Assembly (NCBI GenBank): GCA_012744375.1
Contig: JAAYCD010000038.1
Coordinates: 1-37,000, forward strand
Direction: 5' to 3'
Source of the DNA: Erysipelotrichaceae bacterium
Lineage (GTDB): Bacteria > Bacillota_I > Bacilli_A > RFN20 > CAG-826
Length of the DNA: 37,000 bases
In this document: positions 10,219 through 22,332 of the stretch, one piece after another
Position numbering within the stretch: the stretch's first letter is position 1
Layout of the letters: the number at the start of each line of letters is the position of its first letter
Position numbers and translations under genes: made by a program
The notes under the pieces: generated by a model
Seen by the model: the letters and a program-made list of their open reading frames with translations, nothing else
Told to the model about the DNA's origin: nothing
Database searches by the model: none

Positions 10219-12711
<2,493 letters not shown>

Positions 12712-12738
12712 TTCATTCATTAATAAAATACTATGCAT

Positions 12739-12760
12739 TATAGGGGCAAAAGCCCCTATA
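12739..12760 (+). other. Intercistronic hairpin between dnaK and dnaJ
   Basis: TATAGGGGC-AAAA-GCCCCTATA is a perfect 9-bp stem with an AAAA loop. It is not followed by a T-run, so it is unlikely to be an efficient intrinsic terminator. It is better read as an mRNA stability or processing element, or a block to 3' exonucleases, setting DnaK above DnaJ. Confidence 0.75.
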
Positions 12761-12784
12761 TGTGTATAGAAGGAAAGGCATCAA

Positions 12785-13915
12785 ATGGCAGAAAAAAGAG
12801 ATCTTTATGAAACATTAGGCGTAGCCAAAACTGCCTCAAAAGACGAAATCAAAAGCGCTTATCGTAAACTAGCAAAAACATATCATCCAGACAATAAAAC
12901 AACTGGAAATGAAACTAAGTTTAAGGAAGTACAAGAAGCATATGATATCTTGTACGATGACCAAAAAAGAAGTGCATATGACCAATTTGGTTGGGCGGCT
13001 TTCGAGCAGGGTGGTGGCCAACCTGGAGCTAATCCATTCGAGGGTGGTTTCGGTTTTGGGTCAGGCGACGTCGATTTAGGCGATATCTTCTCGTCTTTCT
13101 TTGGTGGTGGCCGCCGTTCGGCTCGCACCAACATGGGCCCGCGTCGCGGAAATGATTCCATCGTTAGAGTGAAAGTAAACTTTATGGATACCATTTTGGG
13201 TCGCGATATCGATTTACCATTAACCGTTGATGAAACTTGTTCTCATTGTCACGGCACTGGAGCAAGAACTGCTACAGACATTCAAACATGTCCAACTTGT
13301 GCGGGTCGCGGTTACATTAAAACAACACGCCGGAGTTTATTCGGTGTGATTGAACAACAAGAAGTATGTCCACGTTGTGATGGAAGAGGCAAAATCGTCA
13401 TTAACGCTTGTCAAAAATGTAATGGACAAGGTTTCAACCGCGTCAAAAAGACGATAAAAGTCCACATTATCCCCGGCATTAATAATGGCCAACAAATTCG
13501 TGTTCAAGGCATGGGTGAAAGAGGAATTAATGGTGGTGATAACGGTGACTTATTCGTAGAAATTAATGTTAAACCACACGATTATTTCAAAAGAGAAGGC
13601 AATGATATTCATCTCGACTATCCACTAGATTTTTTCGATGCAATCCTAGGGGTGAAAGTTAATATTCCAACCGTTTATGGCGAAGTTCCATTAGATATTC
13701 CAAGCGGCACACAACCCGGCCAAGTGATGAGAATGCGTGGGCATGGCGTTAAAGATTTAAGAACTGGCCGACCGGGTGATCAATATATCCACTTAGATAT
13801 CAAACTTCCAAATAATTTAAACAAGCAACAAAAAGAATTGTTAACAAAATATCGCGATTCAGTGAAAAATGATGATACCTTTATTGCCAAATTCAATAAA
13901 GCGTTCAAAAAATAA
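12785..13915 (+). CDS. dnaJ: Chaperone DnaJ (Hsp40)
   Basis: Stimulates DnaK ATPase and presents substrates. The J domain (1-70) contains YHPDNKT with the essential HPD. A Gly/Phe-rich region (about 72-105) follows, then four CxxCxGxG zinc repeats (CSHCHGTG, CPTCAGRG, CPRCDGRG, CQKCNGQG) and the two C-terminal beta-sandwich domains. It is a full-length type I DnaJ of 376 residues. SD AAAGG lies upstream. It is the last gene of the operon and is closed by a clear terminator. Confidence 0.98.
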   Translation: MAEKRDLYETLGVAKTASKDEIKSAYRKLAKTYHPDNKTTGNETKFKEVQEAYDILYDDQKRSAYDQFGWAAFEQGGGQPGANPFEGGFGFGSGDVDLGDIFSSFFGGGRRSARTNMGPRRGNDSIVRVKVNFMDTILGRDIDLPLTVDETCSHCHGTGARTATDIQTCPTCAGRGYIKTTRRSLFGVIEQQEVCPRCDGRGKIVINACQKCNGQGFNRVKKTIKVHIIPGINNGQQIRVQGMGERGINGGDNGDLFVEINVKPHDYFKREGNDIHLDYPLDFFDAILGVKVNIPTVYGEVPLDIPSGTQPGQVMRMRGHGVKDLRTGRPGDQYIHLDIKLPNNLNKQQKELLTKYRDSVKNDDTFIAKFNKAFKK

Positions 13916-13937
13916 ACCTTCTTATGAAGGTTTTTTT
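13914..13937 (+). terminator. Intrinsic terminator after dnaJ
   Basis: AAACCTTC-TTAT-GAAGGTTT followed by a run of T. It overlaps the last base or two of the dnaJ stop codon and ends the chaperone operon. Confidence 0.9.
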
Positions 13938-13955
13938 ATTTTTTATCACTTTTCT

Positions 13956-13985
13956 TAGACAAATATATTTATTGCCCCCTATTAG
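13956..13985 (+). promoter_or_regulatory. Possible promoter of the C39 membrane gene
   Basis: TAGACA (5/6 of the -35 consensus) and TATTAG (4/6) with an 18-bp spacer, just after the dnaJ terminator and upstream of a strong SD. A promoter is expected here because of the terminator; the exact hexamers are tentative. Confidence 0.35.
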
Positions 13986-14003
13986 AATGTTAGGAGGTCA
14001 TAA

Positions 14004-15221
14004 ATGCAATATATTCCCCAAATTACAAGTGAAGGCTGTGGCTCTGCCTGCTTAAAAATGCTGCTTGCCATTGTGCAAAAGGACGAGCGTTATCTTTATT
14101 TAAATGAAGATGAAGGTCATGGTCCATATTCATACCAGGATTTACTCGACATTGCAAAAAGATACGGAGTGACTTTAATCGGTATAAAAATTGAAGATAA
14201 AGACGATCTAAGCCACTTAACGAACTTTCCGATGATTATAACCATGGTTAACGCAGATGAAACTACGCACGCTGTTTTGCTTAGTCAAAGAAAAGGCAAG
14301 CGTGTAAAAGTACATGACCCTAATAAAGGTGTAATGTGGAAGAAAATATCTGATATTACACGCTTTTGGGATGGGACCGCATTAACTATTTCCCACGTCG
14401 AACGTCAAACTTATGAACGCATCATTATCGACACTAAAGATGTAAAAGGCGAAGTAATTTCTTATTTGCTGCAAACTATGATCGCCACTTTTATCGCCTT
14501 AGGCACTTTCTTAATTAAACCTGATGGCTCGCCCCTTTGGACATTAGTGTTTATGGCTTTAAGTTTAGTAACTGAGATTGCTTTAAGAGGAGCGTTATTA
14601 AAAAGAATGCAGCGGTTTGACAAGTACATAAGGCGTTTTTATAGTTATGTACGCCCCGAGCATTACTTTGAGTTTTATCGCCGTGGCCAAGAATACAAGC
14701 GAAGTTCGCTCACAATGACATTGAACTTTATCTTCTACTTGTTGGTTGTCGTTTTGATTATGACAATTTTACTTTTCAATTCGCTATATTTTTTAATCTT
14801 GATCGCTACTTCCTTTCTTACTTCTTATCTTGGCGTTTTCTTTTTCGCCCCTTATAAAAATCAAATCGCTAAAGATTTAGAAGTAGAAGAAGAGGCATTA
14901 AGAAAGGAAATAGTGGTGGAAGGAGTGGAATTGAAGGTTAAAACAATGGAAATAAAAGCCTATCGATACGCCTATTTAGAAATTGCTAATAAGATCTTTG
15001 CTTTTGCTCTGATGATTTTGGCAAGTATATCCGTCAGCGTCATTGAAAAAGGCTTCAATCTCACCAACATTGTGTTTTACACCTGCTTAAGTATGTTGCT
15101 TTATCAGTCTTTAACGCCGCTTTTTTCTTATGATTACCGCCTAGCGGAAAATTTATTAATGAAAGCTAGGGTTAACAACCTTGTTCATCATCATGATGAA
15201 ATTAATAGTAAAAAGCGCTAA
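14004..15221 (+). CDS. C39 peptidase-membrane protein without ATPase domain
   Basis: Residues 1-135 form a C39 cysteine peptidase domain: Gln6 (oxyanion hole), Cys12 in SEGCGSACLKML, His89 in TTHAVLL and Asp105 in VHDPNKG. In bacteriocin and peptide ABC exporters this domain cuts double-glycine leaders. About six hydrophobic segments follow in three pairs (roughly 154-172/178-198, 240-258/260-283, 330-349/352-372), separated by charged stretches of 40-50 residues, which resembles an ABC-exporter membrane domain. The protein ends at 405, where the nucleotide-binding domain would begin. There is no Walker A or LSGGQ, and ybeY starts 20 nt later, so no broken ATPase remains. Complete exporters of this type are about 700 residues. 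SD TTAGGAGG is excellent. No leader peptide, partner ATPase or immunity gene is visible nearby. It could process peptides at the membrane or pair with an ATPase encoded elsewhere. Confidence 0.75.
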   Translation: MQYIPQITSEGCGSACLKMLLAIVQKDERYLYLNEDEGHGPYSYQDLLDIAKRYGVTLIGIKIEDKDDLSHLTNFPMIITMVNADETTHAVLLSQRKGKRVKVHDPNKGVMWKKISDITRFWDGTALTISHVERQTYERIIIDTKDVKGEVISYLLQTMIATFIALGTFLIKPDGSPLWTLVFMALSLVTEIALRGALLKRMQRFDKYIRRFYSYVRPEHYFEFYRRGQEYKRSSLTMTLNFIFYLLVVVLIMTILLFNSLYFLILIATSFLTSYLGVFFFAPYKNQIAKDLEVEEEALRKEIVVEGVELKVKTMEIKAYRYAYLEIANKIFAFALMILASISVSVIEKGFNLTNIVFYTCLSMLLYQSLTPLFSYDYRLAENLLMKARVNNLVHHHDEINSKKR

Positions 15222-15228
15222 AAGATAG

Positions 15229-15234
15229 TATGAT
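15229..15234 (+). promoter_or_regulatory. -10-like box 6 nt before ybeY
   Basis: TATGAT is followed by 6 nt (TTACGT) and the ybeY ATG, with no SD between. No convincing -35 is seen. It could give a leaderless mRNA; the gene might instead be read from the upstream C39 transcript. Confidence 0.3.
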
Positions 15235-15240
15235 TTACGT

Positions 15241-15696
15241 ATGGAACTTGATTTCAATTCATTCAATGAATCGTATAACCTTTATCAAGCAGAATACGAA
15301 ACACTACTAGACAAAACACTCAAGCATTTAGCCTTAAACTTTGATCCTTTTGTTAGTGTCACGCTCGTCGATAATGATTATATTCAAGCAATTAACCGTG
15401 ACTATCGTCATCTTGACCAGCCCACTGACGTTATCTCCTTTGCATTTTTGGATGATAACAAGGATAGGGATACTATTTTGCACTCTGGTTCGATGGTGAT
15501 TCTTGGTGAAATCTATATCAGTATAGATAAAGCTAAGAGTCAAGCTGAGAACTATGGTCATAGCCTTGATCGCGAGTTAAAATTCTTATTCGTCCATGGA
15601 TTGCTCCATCTTCTCGGCTATGACCATATGACTGAAGCTGAAGAAAAAATCATGTTCGCTTTGCAAGATAAAATCTTGCCAAAAGGTAACTTATGA
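15241..15696 (+). CDS. ybeY: Endoribonuclease YbeY
   Basis: Zinc-dependent single-strand RNase involved in 16S rRNA 3'-end maturation and ribosome quality control; cytosolic. The UPF0054 signature HGLLHLLGYDH supplies His119, His123 and His129 (HxxxHxxxxxH). Upstream NRDYRHLDQPTDVISF is also typical. Length is 151 residues. It opens the conserved ybeY-cdd-era-recO run; the dgkA gene that often sits between ybeY and cdd is absent. The stop overlaps the cdd start (ATGA). No SD precedes its own start. Confidence 0.95.
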   Translation: MELDFNSFNESYNLYQAEYETLLDKTLKHLALNFDPFVSVTLVDNDYIQAINRDYRHLDQPTDVISFAFLDDNKDRDTILHSGSMVILGEIYISIDKAKSQAENYGHSLDRELKFLFVHGLLHLLGYDHMTEAEEKIMFALQDKILPKGNL

Positions 15697-16094
15697 AAAC
15701 TGAAAACTTAATTGAAAAAGCAAAAGATGCACGGAAACTATCTTATAGTCCATACTCAAAATTCGCTGTCGGAGCTGCTTTACTATGTAAAGATGGGCAA
15801 GTCATTGCCGGAGCAAACATCGAAAATGCTTCTTATCCACTATGTATTTGTGCTGAACGCAATGCACTTTATAGCGCGATGTTGCGTGGCTACAAGAAGT
15901 CTGATTTCCTTGCCTTGGCCATTGTTGCTGATACCCCTGAAGCATGTGCGCCTTGTGGTGCTTGTCGTCAAGTAATTAGTGAACTTTTCCCTAAGGAAGG
16001 TGAAATTATTATGGCCAATTTAAAAGGTGCGGTTGTGAAAAGTAATATCGCCAAATTATTACCTTTTGCTTTTTCTGAAGAGGACTTGAAATAA
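15693..16094 (+). CDS. cdd: Cytidine deaminase
   Basis: Hydrolytic deamination of cytidine and deoxycytidine to uridine and deoxyuridine in pyrimidine salvage. The zinc site is complete: Cys53-Ala-Glu55 (CAERNA) and PCGACRQ with Cys88 and Cys91. The N-terminal YSPYSKFAVGAA and GANIENASYP segments form the substrate pocket. Length is 133 residues, typical of the small tetrameric enzyme. SD AAAGG is inside the end of ybeY. It overlaps ybeY by 4 nt and era by 1 nt, so it is translationally coupled on both sides. Confidence 0.96.
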   Translation: MKTENLIEKAKDARKLSYSPYSKFAVGAALLCKDGQVIAGANIENASYPLCICAERNALYSAMLRGYKKSDFLALAIVADTPEACAPCGACRQVISELFPKEGEIIMANLKGAVVKSNIAKLLPFAFSEEDLK

Positions 16095-16978
16095 TGAAAT
16101 CGGGTTTTGTCGCTATCTTAGGCCGACCAAATGTCGGAAAATCCACACTACTCAATCGTTTAATTAACCGTAATGTTTCAATTGTGACCGATAAATCGCA
16201 AACTACAAGAAACAGAATTATCGGTATTTATAATAGTGAAGAAGCACAAATTGTTTTTGTCGATACTCCCGGCATTCATAAGCCACAACAAAAATTAGGC
16301 ATCGAGATGAACAACATGGCTTATAGCACCGCGCACACAGTTGATGCCACTATGCTAGTGGTGGACACTTCTAAACCATTCGGTCCAGGTGATAAATATA
16401 TAATTGACCATCTCAGTATCCATGATCGCCCATTGATTATTGTTTTTAACAAAATTGACCTTGCTCGGCTCGATAAAGCTGAATTATTGAAAAATACATA
16501 CCGCGATTATTTCCCAGGGGCCATCTTTATTGATGTAGTAGCTAAAGAAGGATTTAACGTTGGTGAAATCATTAAAATTTTAATGAATATCTTACCTGAA
16601 GGCCCGGCTTACTACCCAAAAGAAATGGTTACCGATAAAGATGAAATTTTCCGCATTAAAGAAATTATTCGCGAAAAGGTGTTATTAATTCTCCGCCAGG
16701 AAGTGCCACATTCAATAGCCATTTATATGGAACATATTGAGTGGGAGAAAAAGCCAATCGAAATTATGGCTTCAATTATCGTTGAAAAAGAAAGTCAAAA
16801 AGGTATTGTGATTGGTGCTTCTGGAAGAAGAATAAAAGAAATCGGTTCTAAAGCTCGTTCTGATATCGAAAAGTTCTTAAAGCAACACGTTTATTTAGAA
16901 TTACAAGTCAAAGTAAATCCCGATTGGCGCGATGATGAAAAATCATTACAGCAATACGGGTATAAATACGAAAAATAA
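16094..16978 (+). CDS. era: Ribosome-assembly GTPase Era
   Basis: Binds the 3' end of 16S rRNA and assists 30S maturation. The G domain has GRPNVGKST (10-18), DTPGIHKPQ and NKID. The C-terminal KH domain contains IVIGASGRRIKEIG, which recognises the single-stranded rRNA tail near the anti-SD. It has 294 residues, standard length. It starts in a TAATG overlap with cdd and an AGAGG lies upstream. Its pairing with ybeY fits a shared role at the 16S 3' end. Confidence 0.97.
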   Translation: MKSGFVAILGRPNVGKSTLLNRLINRNVSIVTDKSQTTRNRIIGIYNSEEAQIVFVDTPGIHKPQQKLGIEMNNMAYSTAHTVDATMLVVDTSKPFGPGDKYIIDHLSIHDRPLIIVFNKIDLARLDKAELLKNTYRDYFPGAIFIDVVAKEGFNVGEIIKILMNILPEGPAYYPKEMVTDKDEIFRIKEIIREKVLLILRQEVPHSIAIYMEHIEWEKKPIEIMASIIVEKESQKGIVIGASGRRIKEIGSKARSDIEKFLKQHVYLELQVKVNPDWRDDEKSLQQYGYKYEK

Positions 16979-16981
16979 GAA

Positions 16982-17695
16982 ATGAAAGTTATCGTTTTAA
17001 CCGTCAATCAATATAAAGAAAAAGATGCCATCGTCACTGCGGTTGCTGAAAAGCAATTGATCACTTTTCTTGCGAAGGGGATTAATGATCCTAAAAGCAA
17101 AAATAGTGTCCTCAACAACCCTTTAACAATTGTTGACATCGAATTAGTCGAAGGCAACTTAAAATATCCGGTCTTAAAAAACTCAAAACAACTTTTCACG
17201 CCACTAAAAGTGGAAATGGACGCTAATTATTTAGGCGCGCTCTTATTTATTGGTGAAATGATGTTAAATTTATTTCCTGATGAAGAAAAATATAAGATGT
17301 TTGCTTGCTTAGAAGAAGGGGTAGAAGCATTAAGAAAAACTAATGATTGGCTGATGTCCTTGTTAGTATTCATGAGCCATGCGATTAGGATTGGCGGTTT
17401 TGAATTAGAAGTTAATCAATGCGTTATTTGTGGAAATAAACAAAAAATCGTCGCTTTCTCTTTTGTTGATGGCGGATTTATTTGTGAAAAATGTTATCAC
17501 GAAGGCATTTCAATAAATTTAAGCAAAGAGCAAATGCTCTTATTAAGAAAGATTTTTAACGCGCGAGATTATTTGCTTGCTGGAACCGATTACTCGCGTC
17601 AAGATGCTTTAGTTATATTTGATAGAGTGACCGAATACATCCAAGAAGTTTTCGGTTATCACTTTAAGAATCTGAAGCTTTTAACAATTAATTAA
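16982..17695 (+). CDS. recO: DNA repair protein RecO
   Basis: Loads RecA onto SSB-coated single-stranded DNA together with RecR (RecFOR pathway). The N-terminal OB-fold (about 1-75) begins MKVIVLTVNQYKEKDAIV. The C-terminal helical domain has a four-cysteine zinc site, Cys147, 150, 168 and 171. Length is 237 residues. It starts 3 nt after the era stop without an SD. Its order after era matches other Bacillota. Confidence 0.92.
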   Translation: MKVIVLTVNQYKEKDAIVTAVAEKQLITFLAKGINDPKSKNSVLNNPLTIVDIELVEGNLKYPVLKNSKQLFTPLKVEMDANYLGALLFIGEMMLNLFPDEEKYKMFACLEEGVEALRKTNDWLMSLLVFMSHAIRIGGFELEVNQCVICGNKQKIVAFSFVDGGFICEKCYHEGISINLSKEQMLLLRKIFNARDYLLAGTDYSRQDALVIFDRVTEYIQEVFGYHFKNLKLLTIN

Positions 17696-17721
17696 ATAAT
17701 AATAAAAACACTGATAATAGG

Positions 17722-17750
17722 TTGACAACAATTCACATTACTTGTAGCAT
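17722..17750 (+). promoter_or_regulatory. Promoter of glyQS
   Basis: Perfect -35 TTGACA (17722-17727), 17-bp spacer, TAGCAT (17745-17750). The leader is short and has an SD (GAGGT), with no room for a T-box. The intergenic gap after recO supports a new transcript here. Confidence 0.65.
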
Positions 17751-17778
17751 ATAGTTTGTATGCATAACGAGGTAATGT

Positions 17779-19152
17779 ATGAATAAATTTGAATTTGATA
17801 AATTGACCAACCATTTTATTGTCTCTGGCTTTTATTTCCAAGGTTCTGAAATCTATGGTGGATTAAGTAACACTTGGGATTATGGCCCATTAGGAAGCGA
17901 AATTAAGCAAAACATCCGTAGGATGTGGTGGAAGAAATTCGTCCAAGAAAGTCGTACCAATGTCGGCATTGATGCGGCAATATTGATGAACCCAAAAGTT
18001 TGGGAAGCAACAGGACATGTTTCAACTTTTAACGATCCATTAATTGACTGCAAATATTGTAAACAACGCTTCAGAGCCGATCATTTAATCGAAGGCGCCT
18101 ATCCTAATGAAGACGTTAACGCAATGAACAATGATCAAATGATGGCATTTATTCGTTCTCACGAAGTGGCTTGTCCAAACTGTAATCATCATGACTTCAC
18201 TGACATCCGTCAGTTCAATATGATGTTTAAAACGCATATTGGTGTCACGGAGGACAGTAAATCAACAGTGTATTTACGTCCAGAAACAGCTCAAGGCGTA
18301 TTCGTTAACTTCAAAAACGTCATGCGTGCCACTCGTAGAAAATTACCGATCGGTATTTGTAACGTTGGTAGAGCATTTAGAAATGAAATCACTCCTGGTC
18401 AAATGACTTTTCGAACGAGAGAATTCGACCAAATGGAAATGGAGTTTTTCTGTAAGCCAGGCGAAGATTTAAAATGGTTTGATTATTGGAAACAATATTG
18501 TTTGGACTTTGTTGACTCTTTGGGCATTAAAAAGGAAAACCTACGCTACCGCGACCATGAACCAGCGGAATTAGCGTTTTATAGCAAAGCTACCACCGAC
18601 ATTGAATACTTATTCCCATTCGGTTGGGGCGAAATTTGGGGTATTGCCGATCGTACCGATTACGACTTAAAGCGACACATTCAATTTAGTGGAGAATCTT
18701 TGGATTACTTAGATCCAGAAACTAACGAGCGTTACGTGCCTTATTGTATTGAACCATCGGTTGGATTAGATCGTTTAGTATTGATGACTTTATGTGATGC
18801 TTATGACGAACAATTGGTTAATGGCGAAGATTCTCGCATCGTTATGCATCTTCTACCTGCGCTTGCTCCATTTAAAGCAGCAGTATTGCCACTTTCTAAA
18901 AAATTAGAAGACAAAGCTCGCGAAGTTGAGGCTGAACTTTCTAAATATTTTAGTATCGTTTACGACGATACAGGTAGTATTGGCAAACGTTATCGCCGTC
19001 AAGATGCAGTTGGCACTCCATATTGCATTACCATCGACTTTGATACATTAAGTGATGGGGCGGTAACCATTCGTGACCGTGACACCATGGCACAAGTCCG
19101 TTTACCAATCGCCGATTTAAAAGCATATATCGAAGAAAAAATTTATTTCTAA
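17779..19152 (+). CDS. glyQS: Glycyl-tRNA synthetase, single-chain dimeric type
   Basis: Class II synthetase charging tRNAGly; cytosolic homodimer. This is the eukaryote/Gram-positive type (one 457-residue chain), not the alpha2beta2 type. Class II motifs include [20 protein letters not shown], then [17 protein letters not shown] (motif 2) and GVDRL-like VGLDRLVL (motif 3). An insertion with CKYCKQRF and CPNCNHH could bind zinc. A C-terminal anticodon-binding domain starts at about 360. SD GAGGT precedes the ATG. It sits between recO and dnaG, where B. subtilis has the two-gene glyQ-glyS pair. Confidence 0.96.
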
Positions 19153-19184
19153 TCAGTAAAAAATTAGTAGAAAAATAGGGAAAC

Positions 19185-19190
19185 TATAAT
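19185..19190 (+). promoter_or_regulatory. Consensus -10 for dnaG, leaderless arrangement
   Basis: Perfect TATAAT followed by 7 nt (AAATTAT) and the dnaG ATG. No SD lies in between. The -35 is poor. This is one of the clearest candidate leaderless starts in the window. Confidence 0.55.
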
Positions 19191-19197
19191 AAATTAT

Positions 19198-20979
19198 ATG
19201 GCATTTGAAGAAGGATTATACAACGAGGTACTTAAGCGCGCAGACATCGTCAAGGTGGTATCTGCTTATTTACCTGTGGTCAGAAAAGGTAAAGACTATT
19301 TGGCAAAATGTCCTTTCCACGATGACACTAACCCTTCTATGCACGTTTCTCCGCAGTTAAAAATCTTTAAGTGCTTTGTTTGTGGCACAAGTGGCAACTC
19401 AATTAGCTTCGTTAAGAAGTATGCTAAGATGTCTGCCATGGAAGCGATGAAGAAAGTTGCTGAAATCTCTGATTTCCATGACCCCCGTTTAGAAGGTATT
19501 ACTAAAGTAAAAGTCGTCGACCCTAAACGTGTGCCTTTAGTTAAGTGTTTGCACGACTTAACAGTTTATTATCAATATGCACTAAACTCTCCAGAAGGCA
19601 AAGTAGGACTAGAATATTTCACTAATCGCTATTTGGATGCGGGGATAAGAAACAAGTTCCGTTTAGGCTATGCCTATAAAGATGGTAAGGCAACTTGTGA
19701 CTTTTTACTTAGCAAAGGCCATTCATTAAAAACAATTGAAGATGTCGGTATTGCGCTTGCGATTAATAATGCCTATTATGACCGCAACCAAGGACGTGTC
19801 ATCTTTCCTATCTTTGATAACGAAGGGGAAGTCGTTGGATATTCTGCTAGACGTCTAGGTGATGGATCTGAGGCTAAATATGTTAACTCGCCCGATACTT
19901 ATTTGTTTCACAAATCCAATATTTTATATAACTATCACAATGCGAAAGAAAAAGCGCACATCGCCGGTTACGTTTATGTACTTGAAGGGTTTATGGATGT
20001 TTTTGCACTTTATCGCATTGGTATTGAAGCAGCAGTGGCCACAATGGGCACAACTTTAAGTGATGAACACATCCGTTTACTTAGAGCACTAAATGTAGAA
20101 GTAAGACTTTGTCTTGATGGTGATTTGCCTGGTCAAAAGGCTTCAATGACGATGGCGGATTTATTAATTAAAAATGGTATTAATGTTCGCATTGTTGATA
20201 ATCAAAACAATCGTAAAGACCCAGACGAAATATTGAACACCGAAGGTGATGTCGCTTTAAACGCTTATTTAAATAAGTTGATTTCTTATGTTGACTTTAC
20301 TCTTAACTTTTATCTCAACACCAACCCATTACAAACTACAGAACAAAAAACACAACTCATCCAAGAATTCGTCCCAATTTTATTGGGTATTCGTTTGCAA
20401 TTAGAACTCGATAGTTATATCGGTAAGTTATCCAAAATTACTGGCTATACTTCTGAAGCGATAAGAAATATTTTAAAGACCGCAAAAGTAAGGCCTGAAA
20501 TTAGAGATTATCGCTCGATGATTATCGATTACCATCCTGAAAGAAAAATCCTCCGCAGACTTAATCTGGCGGAGCGTGAACTTTTATACCAAATGTTACA
20601 AAACAAGCAAGCAGTGGGCTTTTACGAGGGAAATATCGATGGTTTTTATGATTCCACCTACCGTGTAATTGCCAATTTCGTTATTGAGTATGCGCGAACA
20701 CACGATAACTTCGTGCCAGTGGACATTATTTCTTCATTAGAAAATAGCGACATTGATGGCAAAGAAATGATGGTTAACCAAATTACTGAGTTATATATGG
20801 AAAGAAACCATCCAAAGTGTGACCAAAAATTGCTTGATAATTTACAACAGGTGATTAAAGAAGAAAAAGAACGGATTTTCGAAAATGATTTACTCGAACA
20901 ATCTTTACAAAACAAAAGCCAGCTCGATCAAGCGCGTATTCTCGCAGAATATAATCGTCGTAAAGTACGTAAAAAGTAA
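19198..20979 (+). CDS. dnaG: DNA primase DnaG
   Basis: Makes RNA primers for lagging-strand replication with the replicative helicase. The N-terminal zinc ribbon has Cys38, His41, Cys59 and Cys62 (CPFHDD and CFVCG). The RNA-polymerase core follows with GRVIFPIFDNEGEVVGYSAR, the TOPRIM YVLEGFMDVFAL and the metal-binding DGDLPGQKA. The C-terminal part (about 440-593) fits the helicase-interaction domain and is less conserved. Length is 593 residues. No SD precedes the ATG, while a perfect TATAAT ends 7 nt upstream. It is followed by rpoD as in the classical dnaG-rpoD arrangement. Confidence 0.97.
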   Translation: MAFEEGLYNEVLKRADIVKVVSAYLPVVRKGKDYLAKCPFHDDTNPSMHVSPQLKIFKCFVCGTSGNSISFVKKYAKMSAMEAMKKVAEISDFHDPRLEGITKVKVVDPKRVPLVKCLHDLTVYYQYALNSPEGKVGLEYFTNRYLDAGIRNKFRLGYAYKDGKATCDFLLSKGHSLKTIEDVGIALAINNAYYDRNQGRVIFPIFDNEGEVVGYSARRLGDGSEAKYVNSPDTYLFHKSNILYNYHNAKEKAHIAGYVYVLEGFMDVFALYRIGIEAAVATMGTTLSDEHIRLLRALNVEVRLCLDGDLPGQKASMTMADLLIKNGINVRIVDNQNNRKDPDEILNTEGDVALNAYLNKLISYVDFTLNFYLNTNPLQTTEQKTQLIQEFVPILLGIRLQLELDSYIGKLSKITGYTSEAIRNILKTAKVRPEIRDYRSMIIDYHPERKILRRLNLAERELLYQMLQNKQAVGFYEGNIDGFYDSTYRVIANFVIEYARTHDNFVPVDIISSLENSDIDGKEMMVNQITELYMERNHPKCDQKLLDNLQQVIKEEKERIFENDLLEQSLQNKSQLDQARILAEYNRRKVRKK

Positions 20980-21012
20980 TATAAACCAAAGCAATGAAAG
21001 GGGCATTGATTT

Positions 21013-22332
21013 ATGGGAACAAAAAAAGTTGAAACAGTAGAAACTGAAAACAAACCAAAAAAAAGAGGTAGACCAAAAGTGAGCGAAGGTGGGGTTAGCA
21101 CTCCAAAACTTTCTTTAGAAAAAGAGAAGAAAAAACCACTCAAGGCTATTTATGATGAAGACGGTGAAATTTTATCTTTAGATGAGATTAAGGCTAAATT
21201 ATTAAAAAAAGCTAAAGCAGCAGGGAGCATAGACCAAAGCGATATTTATGACACGCTTTCCCCATTCGACGTGGATGATAATACTCTCCTTGATTTAATC
21301 AACTTCTTCAAAGATAGTGGCATTGAAGTTGTCGTCGATACCGAAGAAGAAGACGAAGATTTCGAAGTAGATTTCGATGAGAACAAATTAGCGCTTGACG
21401 TCGAAGATGATGCAGCTGACTTTTTTGAAGAAGATACAGTTAAAGAAGAAGAGGAAGAAGAAATTGATGTCGATTATCTTGGCAGTGAAGTCAAAGTAAA
21501 TGACTCTGTCAAAATGTACTTAAAAGAAATCGGCAAATATAGTTTGTTAAAGGCTACTGACGAACCAATTCTCGCTAAGAAAATTTTAGAAGGCGACGAA
21601 GAGGCAAAAATGACACTTATTAACGCTAACTTACGTTTAGTCGTCAACATTGCAAAACACTATGTTGGTCGCGGTATGTTGCTACTTGACTTAATTCAAG
21701 AAGGCAACCTTGGTTTGATGAAAGCTGTTGATAAATTTGACTATACCAAAGGGTATAAGTTTTCAACTTACGCCACATGGTGGATTCGTCAAGCTATCAC
21801 TAGAGCTATTGCCGATCAAGCTAGAACGATTCGTATTCCAGTCCACATGGTGGAAACCATCAACAAGATGACGAGAATTCAAAGACAACTTATCCAAGAA
21901 TTAGGCCGTGAACCAACCGCCGAAGAAATTAGCGATGTAATGAACGGTGAACTTTCCGCCAAACGAATCCGTGAAATTCAAAGAATCGCCATGGAACCAG
22001 TTTCATTAGAAACTCCAATTGGTGAGGAAGATGATTCGCATTTAGGTGACTTTATCGAAGATAAGGAAAGCGAATCTCCAGTGGACTTTACCACCAGACA
22101 ACTTTTAAAAGAAGAATTATATGCCATTTTGAAAGATTTAAGTGATCGCGAAGAAAGAGTAATTAGACTCCGTTATGGTTTAGATGATAACCGCCCAAGA
22201 ACTTTAGAAGAAGTTGGTCGTGAATTTGGAGTTACTCGCGAAAGAATTAGACAGATTGAAGCTAAAGCCATTAAAAAGCTTAGACATCCAACCCGCTCAA
22301 AGAGACTCGGTGATTATAAGGAAAAAATATAA
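21013..22332 (+). CDS. rpoD: Primary sigma factor RpoD/SigA
   Basis: Directs RNA polymerase to housekeeping promoters. An N-terminal Lys/Pro-rich tail and an acidic region 1 (to about 170) precede region 1.2 ([11 protein letters not shown]), region 2 ([47 protein letters not shown]), region 3 and region 4 ([17 protein letters not shown]). At 439 residues it is longer than B. subtilis SigA because of the N-terminal extension. That extension includes KKRGRPK (16-22), the core of an AT-hook, unusual for a sigma factor. SD AAAGGGG is 10 nt before the ATG. It ends in a 1-nt overlap with trmK. Confidence 0.98.

Follow-up and report, generated by a model that had tools for sequence, protein, structure and literature searches.

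A ybeY-linked C39 peptidase without an ATPase, derived from peptidase-containing ABC exporters and probably acting as a membrane-anchored protease

The usual view of peptidase-containing ABC exporters (PCATs) is that they release bacteriocins or pheromones and that their cutting step serves ATP-driven transport. Their C39 domains cleave the leader behind a pair of small residues and have a hydrophobic groove that binds a short helix of the leader (PMC6363468). In the C39-like domains (CLDs) of HlyB-type exporters the catalytic Cys has been lost and the ATPase is retained (PMC6363468), and the isolated C39 domain LahT150 works without a transporter in vitro (PMC6363468). In Mollicutes, a family of C39-ABC proteins (NCBIfam NF045998, the Mbov_0121 family) probably includes JCVI-syn3A gene 0401, which has been described as a C39 transporter without a GG precursor and for which a lipoyl-transfer role was proposed, only to balance the metabolic model (PMC6609329). 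In the literature we found no description of an ATPase-free, ybeY-linked C39 family.

The window, by which we mean the whole 37,000-nt stretch of Erysipelotrichaceae DNA that was analysed, contains a gene whose product is a C39 peptidase derived from PCAT exporters (Table 1). Like PCAT1, ComA and LahT (AMS/PCAT), the protein carries the C39 catalytic tetrad followed by a six-helix exporter membrane domain. It differs from them in lacking the ATPase, in the shortening of both intracellular coupling loops and of extracellular loop 1, in having no precursor or accessory gene beside it, and in its fixed place in a ybeY operon, not in a locus for a bacteriocin or pheromone. With the Mollicute C39-ABC proteins it shares the slot before ybeY; a single ybeY-linked clade is not rejected, and one Mollicute branch has also lost its Walker motifs. 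The Mollicute proteins nonetheless keep the ATPase domain, working or decayed, and the window protein scores only 27.6 bits against NF045998 (cut-off 500). The window protein and the HlyB-type CLDs are both cases of a PCAT-type exporter with one usual part degenerated, with opposite losses: here the peptidase is kept and the ATPase is gone.

Table 1. Coordinates of the C39 gene, its parts and its neighbours in the window
Feature	Position	Strand	Basis or remark
Terminator-like hairpin closing the hrcA-grpE-dnaK-dnaJ operon	13914-13933	+	consensus match only
Shine-Dalgarno AGGAGG of the C39 gene	13992-13997	+	sequence
ATPase-free C39 membrane peptidase gene	14004-15221	+	405 aa/codons, ATG start; ORF, Pfam, AlphaFold2, Foldseek
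C39 peptidase domain, residues 2-130	14007-14393	+	Pfam Peptidase_C39
Gln6 codon (oxyanion-hole residue of C39 enzymes)	14019-14021	+	invariant
Cys12 codon (nucleophile)	14037-14039	+	invariant
His89 codon	14268-14270	+	invariant
Asp105 codon	14316-14318	+	invariant
Six-helix exporter-type membrane domain, residues 147-394	14442-15185	+	AlphaFold2, Foldseek, family profile
Shortened intracellular loop 1 region, residues 200-236	14601-14711	+	12 residues under ATPase-bearing relatives
Shortened intracellular loop 2 region, residues 282-325	14847-14978	+	12 residues under ATPase-bearing relatives
ybeY (rRNA maturation endoribonuclease), fixed downstream neighbour	15241-15696	+	
Remainder of conserved cluster, cdd through dnaG	15693-20979	+	
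cdd, conserved ybeY cluster	15693-16094	+	same order in relatives
era, conserved ybeY cluster	16094-16978	+	same order in relatives
recO, conserved ybeY cluster	16982-17695	+	same order in relatives
glyS, conserved ybeY cluster	17779-19152	+	same order in relatives
dnaG, conserved ybeY cluster	19198-20979	+	same order in relatives

A first-pass annotation of this DNA had placed the gene between the chaperone operon and ybeY, behind a strong Shine-Dalgarno sequence, and had noted that the chain stops at residue 405 with no ATPase debris before ybeY. An AGGAGG motif is indeed present, and the 19 nt between the stop codon and ybeY contain no ATPase remnant. The position likewise stands, but the link to the chaperone genes appears incidental: the terminator-like hairpin parts dnaJ from the C39 gene, making the latter the likely first gene of the ybeY operon, outside the chaperone operon, and ybeY is the constant neighbour. 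No Rfam match was returned across 12500-21500.

The window protein matches Peptidase_C39 (PF03412) over residues 2-130 with 55.2 bits (cut-off 22). The full catalytic set proposed in the first pass, Gln6, Cys12, His89 and Asp105, is present, and in an alignment of 47 diverse homologues these four are the sole invariant columns, a pattern far beyond chance. Replacement of the catalytic Cys, the hallmark of HlyB-type CLDs, is absent, Cys12 being invariant. Among the proteins of the tree set described below, the tetrad is complete in 32 of 32 ATPase-free rows and in 7 of 7 rows with a decayed ATPase.

An AlphaFold2 model built on 47 aligned homologues (mean pLDDT 91.2, pTM 0.83) consists of the C39 domain and six long helices (residues 147-169, 177-215, 218-259, 261-301, 305-347 and 353-374), paired as in an exporter half, just as the six hydrophobic segments had been read from the sequence. 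The top PDB matches in Foldseek are all PCAT1, the best fold match, and extend over the whole chain (E 2.9e-15), so the predicted fold is PCAT1-like rather than that of a non-ABC protein. The superposition gives a TM-score of 0.59 by query length and an rmsd of 7.5; the relative placement of the parts therefore differs. Alignments of the family profile likewise reach into the membrane domains of PCAT1 (16-348) and ComA (7-370). Pfam returned no ABC_tran or ABC_membrane match in the window protein, and the membrane domain, invisible to Pfam, was recognised solely by structure and family-profile comparison. A role in competence or type II secretion, raised by a weak T2SSF Pfam match (E 0.17), was dropped, there being no comG-type neighbours.

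The intracellular loop regions measure 37 (34-40) and 44 (37-47) residues in the ATPase-free clade, against medians of 48-49 and 56 in the ATPase-bearing groups and 41 and 48 in the branch with a decayed ATPase. Extracellular loop 1 is shortened too (18 vs 28-29). In the alignment to PCAT1, the stretch absent from the window family is LPMNFFNSRKVG, which we take to be where coupling helix 1 sits in such exporters. Membership of the PCAT exporters is not claimed for the window protein, because two of their defining features were looked for and not found: a C-terminal ATPase with Walker A and B, lacking here and in all ATPase-free orthologues, and coupling helices in the intracellular loops (37/44 vs 49/56 residues, with the gap at LPMNFFNSRKVG).

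Of 15 other genomes of the genus, 13 carry an ATPase-free homologue of ~380-425 aa (in one case cut to a fragment by the end of the contig); most of the home family and two more families of the order (f3 and f5) have such homologues as well. Recent truncation, which would have left ATPases in the orthologues of close relatives, is rejected, as those orthologues all lack one. In the first locus set, the gene lies directly upstream of ybeY at 44 of 51 informative loci (median gap ~32 nt); three have an intervening gene and four lie elsewhere, while four further loci end at a contig edge and stand outside the 51. The gene upstream varies (dnaJ, rpsU/deoC or yqfC-yqfD), and ybeY is therefore the fixed partner, followed in relatives by cdd-era-recO-glyS-dnaG. 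The conserved chromosomal role anticipated in the first pass is thus supported by orthologues across the order in the same slot. A scan of named genomes returned a single relative, an Erysipelotrichia MAG, and a phylum-wide search again gave matches from the same class. Mean pairwise identity reaches 0.32 for the C39 domain against 0.19 for the membrane domain. Comparisons within the genus give a dN/dS of ~0.02-0.13 for the whole protein, with low values in each domain, and the membrane part is therefore under selection there too. Some genomes of f1 (genera g5 and g23; loci L109, L110, L173 and L174) encode a second, ATPase-bearing C39 exporter (~722 aa) in addition to the ATPase-free ybeY-linked protein, and at six other loci (L189, L195, L196, L197, L203 and L204; f5, g52) ybeY and cdd appear fused in one frame of ~286-296 aa.

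In an effort to follow the ybeY slot more widely, we combined a class-wide profile search with the neighbourhoods of its matches. In f11, f22 and f20 the slot is occupied by full-length C39-ABC proteins of ~600-690 aa, encoded immediately before ybeY-(cdd)-era-(recO-glyS-dnaG) or separated from it by one small gene. The first two of these families read TGA as tryptophan and were classed as Mollicutes by that trait. Proteins of f20, f22 and part of f11 have both Walker motifs, A and B, together with a modified signature; the remaining f11 proteins (L116, L117, L118, L125, L126 and L161-L163) showed no Walker A, and Walker B is absent from all those checked. Two of the Walker-less proteins were run against Pfam, which found C39 and no ABC domain in either. 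The model of one such protein matches the whole of PCAT1 (pLDDT 80, E 2.1e-20), suggesting that this branch keeps a folded, motif-less ATPase domain. The intact Walker motifs of f20 suggest that export may be the job there. At one f20 locus (L139, 3151-5185) the C39-ABC protein is encoded in two overlapping frames, of 186 and 493 aa, through a frameshift that is either real or an assembly error.

Elsewhere the slot holds less. In f2 and f4, both of the home order, and in two genomes of f25, its only occupant is a C39 domain of 116-171 aa that lacks any membrane part; one f2 case (L179) was assigned by eye. Such forms would have to act without a transporter as LahT150 does, which is an artificial construct of a full exporter, whereas these are natural. 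The f25 proteins begin at the catalytic Cys itself and have no Gln, and at least one f4 protein, that of L185, is a weak match (17 bits, under the Pfam cut-off); peptidase activity may thus not be retained in every lineage. At one f25 locus (L168, 4735-7432) the standalone gene lies between a run reading as rplU-prp-rpmA-obg and ybeY. This places a gene for another small cysteine protease, the L27-trimming Prp, only a few genes away. Another standalone C39-like ORF in f4 (L108, 3720-4103, minus strand; 127 aa, no Gln before the Cys) adjoins a DNA polymerase IV-type gene away from ybeY. f8 and a few individual genomes have no C39 gene before ybeY, and in one Mollicute (G222; L160, 4415-6847) the C39 gene between a DJ-1-type gene and ybeY is broken into short frames. 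Absence and breakage of this kind indicate that the gene is not essential for all lineages.

Quick trees were computed for 91 proteins over the C39 and membrane domains; their branches are long. The ATPase-free rows form one clade (SH-aLRT 99). A tree with all 66 ybeY-linked proteins as one clade lies 23 log units above the free quick tree (p-AU 0.859), so that one origin of the ybeY-linked gene is supported and, given the long branches, not proven. Uniting the intact and decayed f11 proteins is likewise not rejected and has a higher likelihood (p-AU 0.866), and we set aside a clade of decayed-ATPase and ATPase-free proteins, which has a support of only 52 and a lower likelihood than the f11 clade. 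Most likely, the ATPase was lost independently at least two times in the ybeY slot while the peptidase site was kept, as argued by the tree, by the fact that the two groups belong to separate families, and by the way in which each lost its ATPase (deletion versus decay in place). An ancestral link to the full-length C39-ABC exporters of f17 was considered and dropped: several have their own GG peptides, they group with non-ybeY exporters in the tree, and they were treated as separate. These f17 genes (L095, L099, L100 and L101) lie beside rpsU-yqeY-(yqfC-yqfD) with a single-helix accessory gene, and short ORFs with a typical GG leader were seen at L095 (5908-6078, MSKKMKRLNKNELMQINGGA) and L099 (6534-6716, LSSQELVQMEGGS).

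Because the ATPase has been lost at least twice with the active site intact, cutting rather than export looks like the conserved job. We propose, with a probability of roughly 0.6, that the product of the window gene is a C39 cysteine protease anchored in the membrane, and that its ancestor was a PCAT that lost the ATPase and had its coupling loops shortened. The C39 domain would cut its substrate at the cytoplasmic side of the membrane, without ATP-driven export and probably behind two small residues like other C39 enzymes, and the six-helix domain would serve as an anchor, a dimer scaffold or a passive conduit. The membrane-bound maturation protease suggested by the first-pass annotation is thus the best reading; the exporter scaffold and an apparently intact peptidase are borne out, whereas proteolysis itself is something we infer.

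The home genome contains no other C39 protein. Scanned with a strict GG-leader DNA motif, it yielded 4 matches, none of them plausible, where the reversed control yielded 9; TIGR01847, a model of bacteriocin leaders, found nothing. The search for small ORFs with GG leaders that the first-pass annotation had suggested therefore came back empty, for one motif and one model that non-canonical precursors could escape. A bacteriocin locus was rejected here as it had been in the first pass: no precursor lies near the C39 gene and none was recognised genome-wide by the motif or TIGR01847. This agrees with the published remark on gene 0401 (PMC6609329). The substrate is probably a protein or peptide of the cell rather than a bacteriocin, and may differ among lineages.

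Gene 0401 itself probably belongs to the Mollicute branch with the decayed ATPase, judging by gene order: a gene of DJ-1/PfpI type (recognised by eye) immediately precedes C39 in the decayed f11 loci, and JCVISYN3A_0400 is a DJ-1 homologue (PMC9426524). A bolder extension of the protease reading, which we consider less likely than not, is a housekeeping enzyme of the ybeY operon that would process an intracellular protein tied to the YbeY/Era ribosome-maturation genes, with first ATP use and then the membrane domain becoming optional, and that would be kept in reduced Mollicutes, probably including gene 0401. The linkage to ybeY could reflect function, through the rRNA maturation genes, or merely a stable chromosomal position.

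Papain-like enzymes can catalyse transfer reactions, and the C39 domain could instead bind leader-like helices or be a transferase or regulator, its tetrad serving other chemistry. The failure to find a GG precursor, in the home genome as in JCVI-syn3A (PMC6609329), would fit such a role. We nevertheless regard it as rather unlikely: the four invariant residues are the classic proteolytic set, and the lipoyl proposal was made for the sake of model balance.

The first-pass annotation had also considered half of a split exporter, with the ATPase supplied by another gene and the cleaved peptide still exported. The membrane domain does keep an exporter fold under purifying selection, and among the 41 ABC_tran matches of the home genome are ABC ATPases without a membrane domain, in frames of 238-348 aa. 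Against this, each intracellular loop is about 12 residues short where the coupling helices would be, the C39 gene has no recurrent ATPase gene as a neighbour, all eight recognised ABC_membrane half-exporters of the home genome carry their own in-frame ATPase (8/8), and some lineages have dropped the membrane domain as well. A single-helix accessory gene that overlaps the end of the C39-ABC gene in 4 of 4 intact f11 loci and most f22 loci is absent from the decayed, ATPase-free and f20 loci; together with the loop shortening, this argues against an ATPase acting in trans. We consider the split arrangement improbable.

Equally without ATP, the C39 domain might cut a precursor whose product leaves down its gradient through the six helices. 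The exporter fold, purifying selection on the membrane domain and the C39 domain at its usual end of the protein speak for such a passive channel, yet no precursor was recognised, extracellular loop 1 is shortened, and lineages with C39 alone could not operate in this way, so that we think it very unlikely. That the gene is a functionless, slowly decaying relic is scarcely credible: stepwise loss of the ATPase, the accessory gene and locally the membrane domain, and the fragments in L160, are outweighed by a dN/dS far under 1, a tetrad invariant across a deeply diverged clade, frames open almost everywhere and a clear Shine-Dalgarno sequence.

For a membrane-anchored protease of this kind, the ybeY locus would be a place where cutting and ATP-driven transport come apart in nature. 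These analyses suggest that automatic “bacteriocin/lantibiotic exporter” labels given to genes of the ybeY operon are probably mistaken in those branches whose ATPase is gone or decayed. They would unite in one family a so far uncharacterised protein that is spread through an order, a Mollicute family that has been a puzzle and probably the minimal-cell gene JCVI-syn3A 0401, and the question of what the ybeY-linked C39 peptidase cuts becomes testable in tractable hosts.
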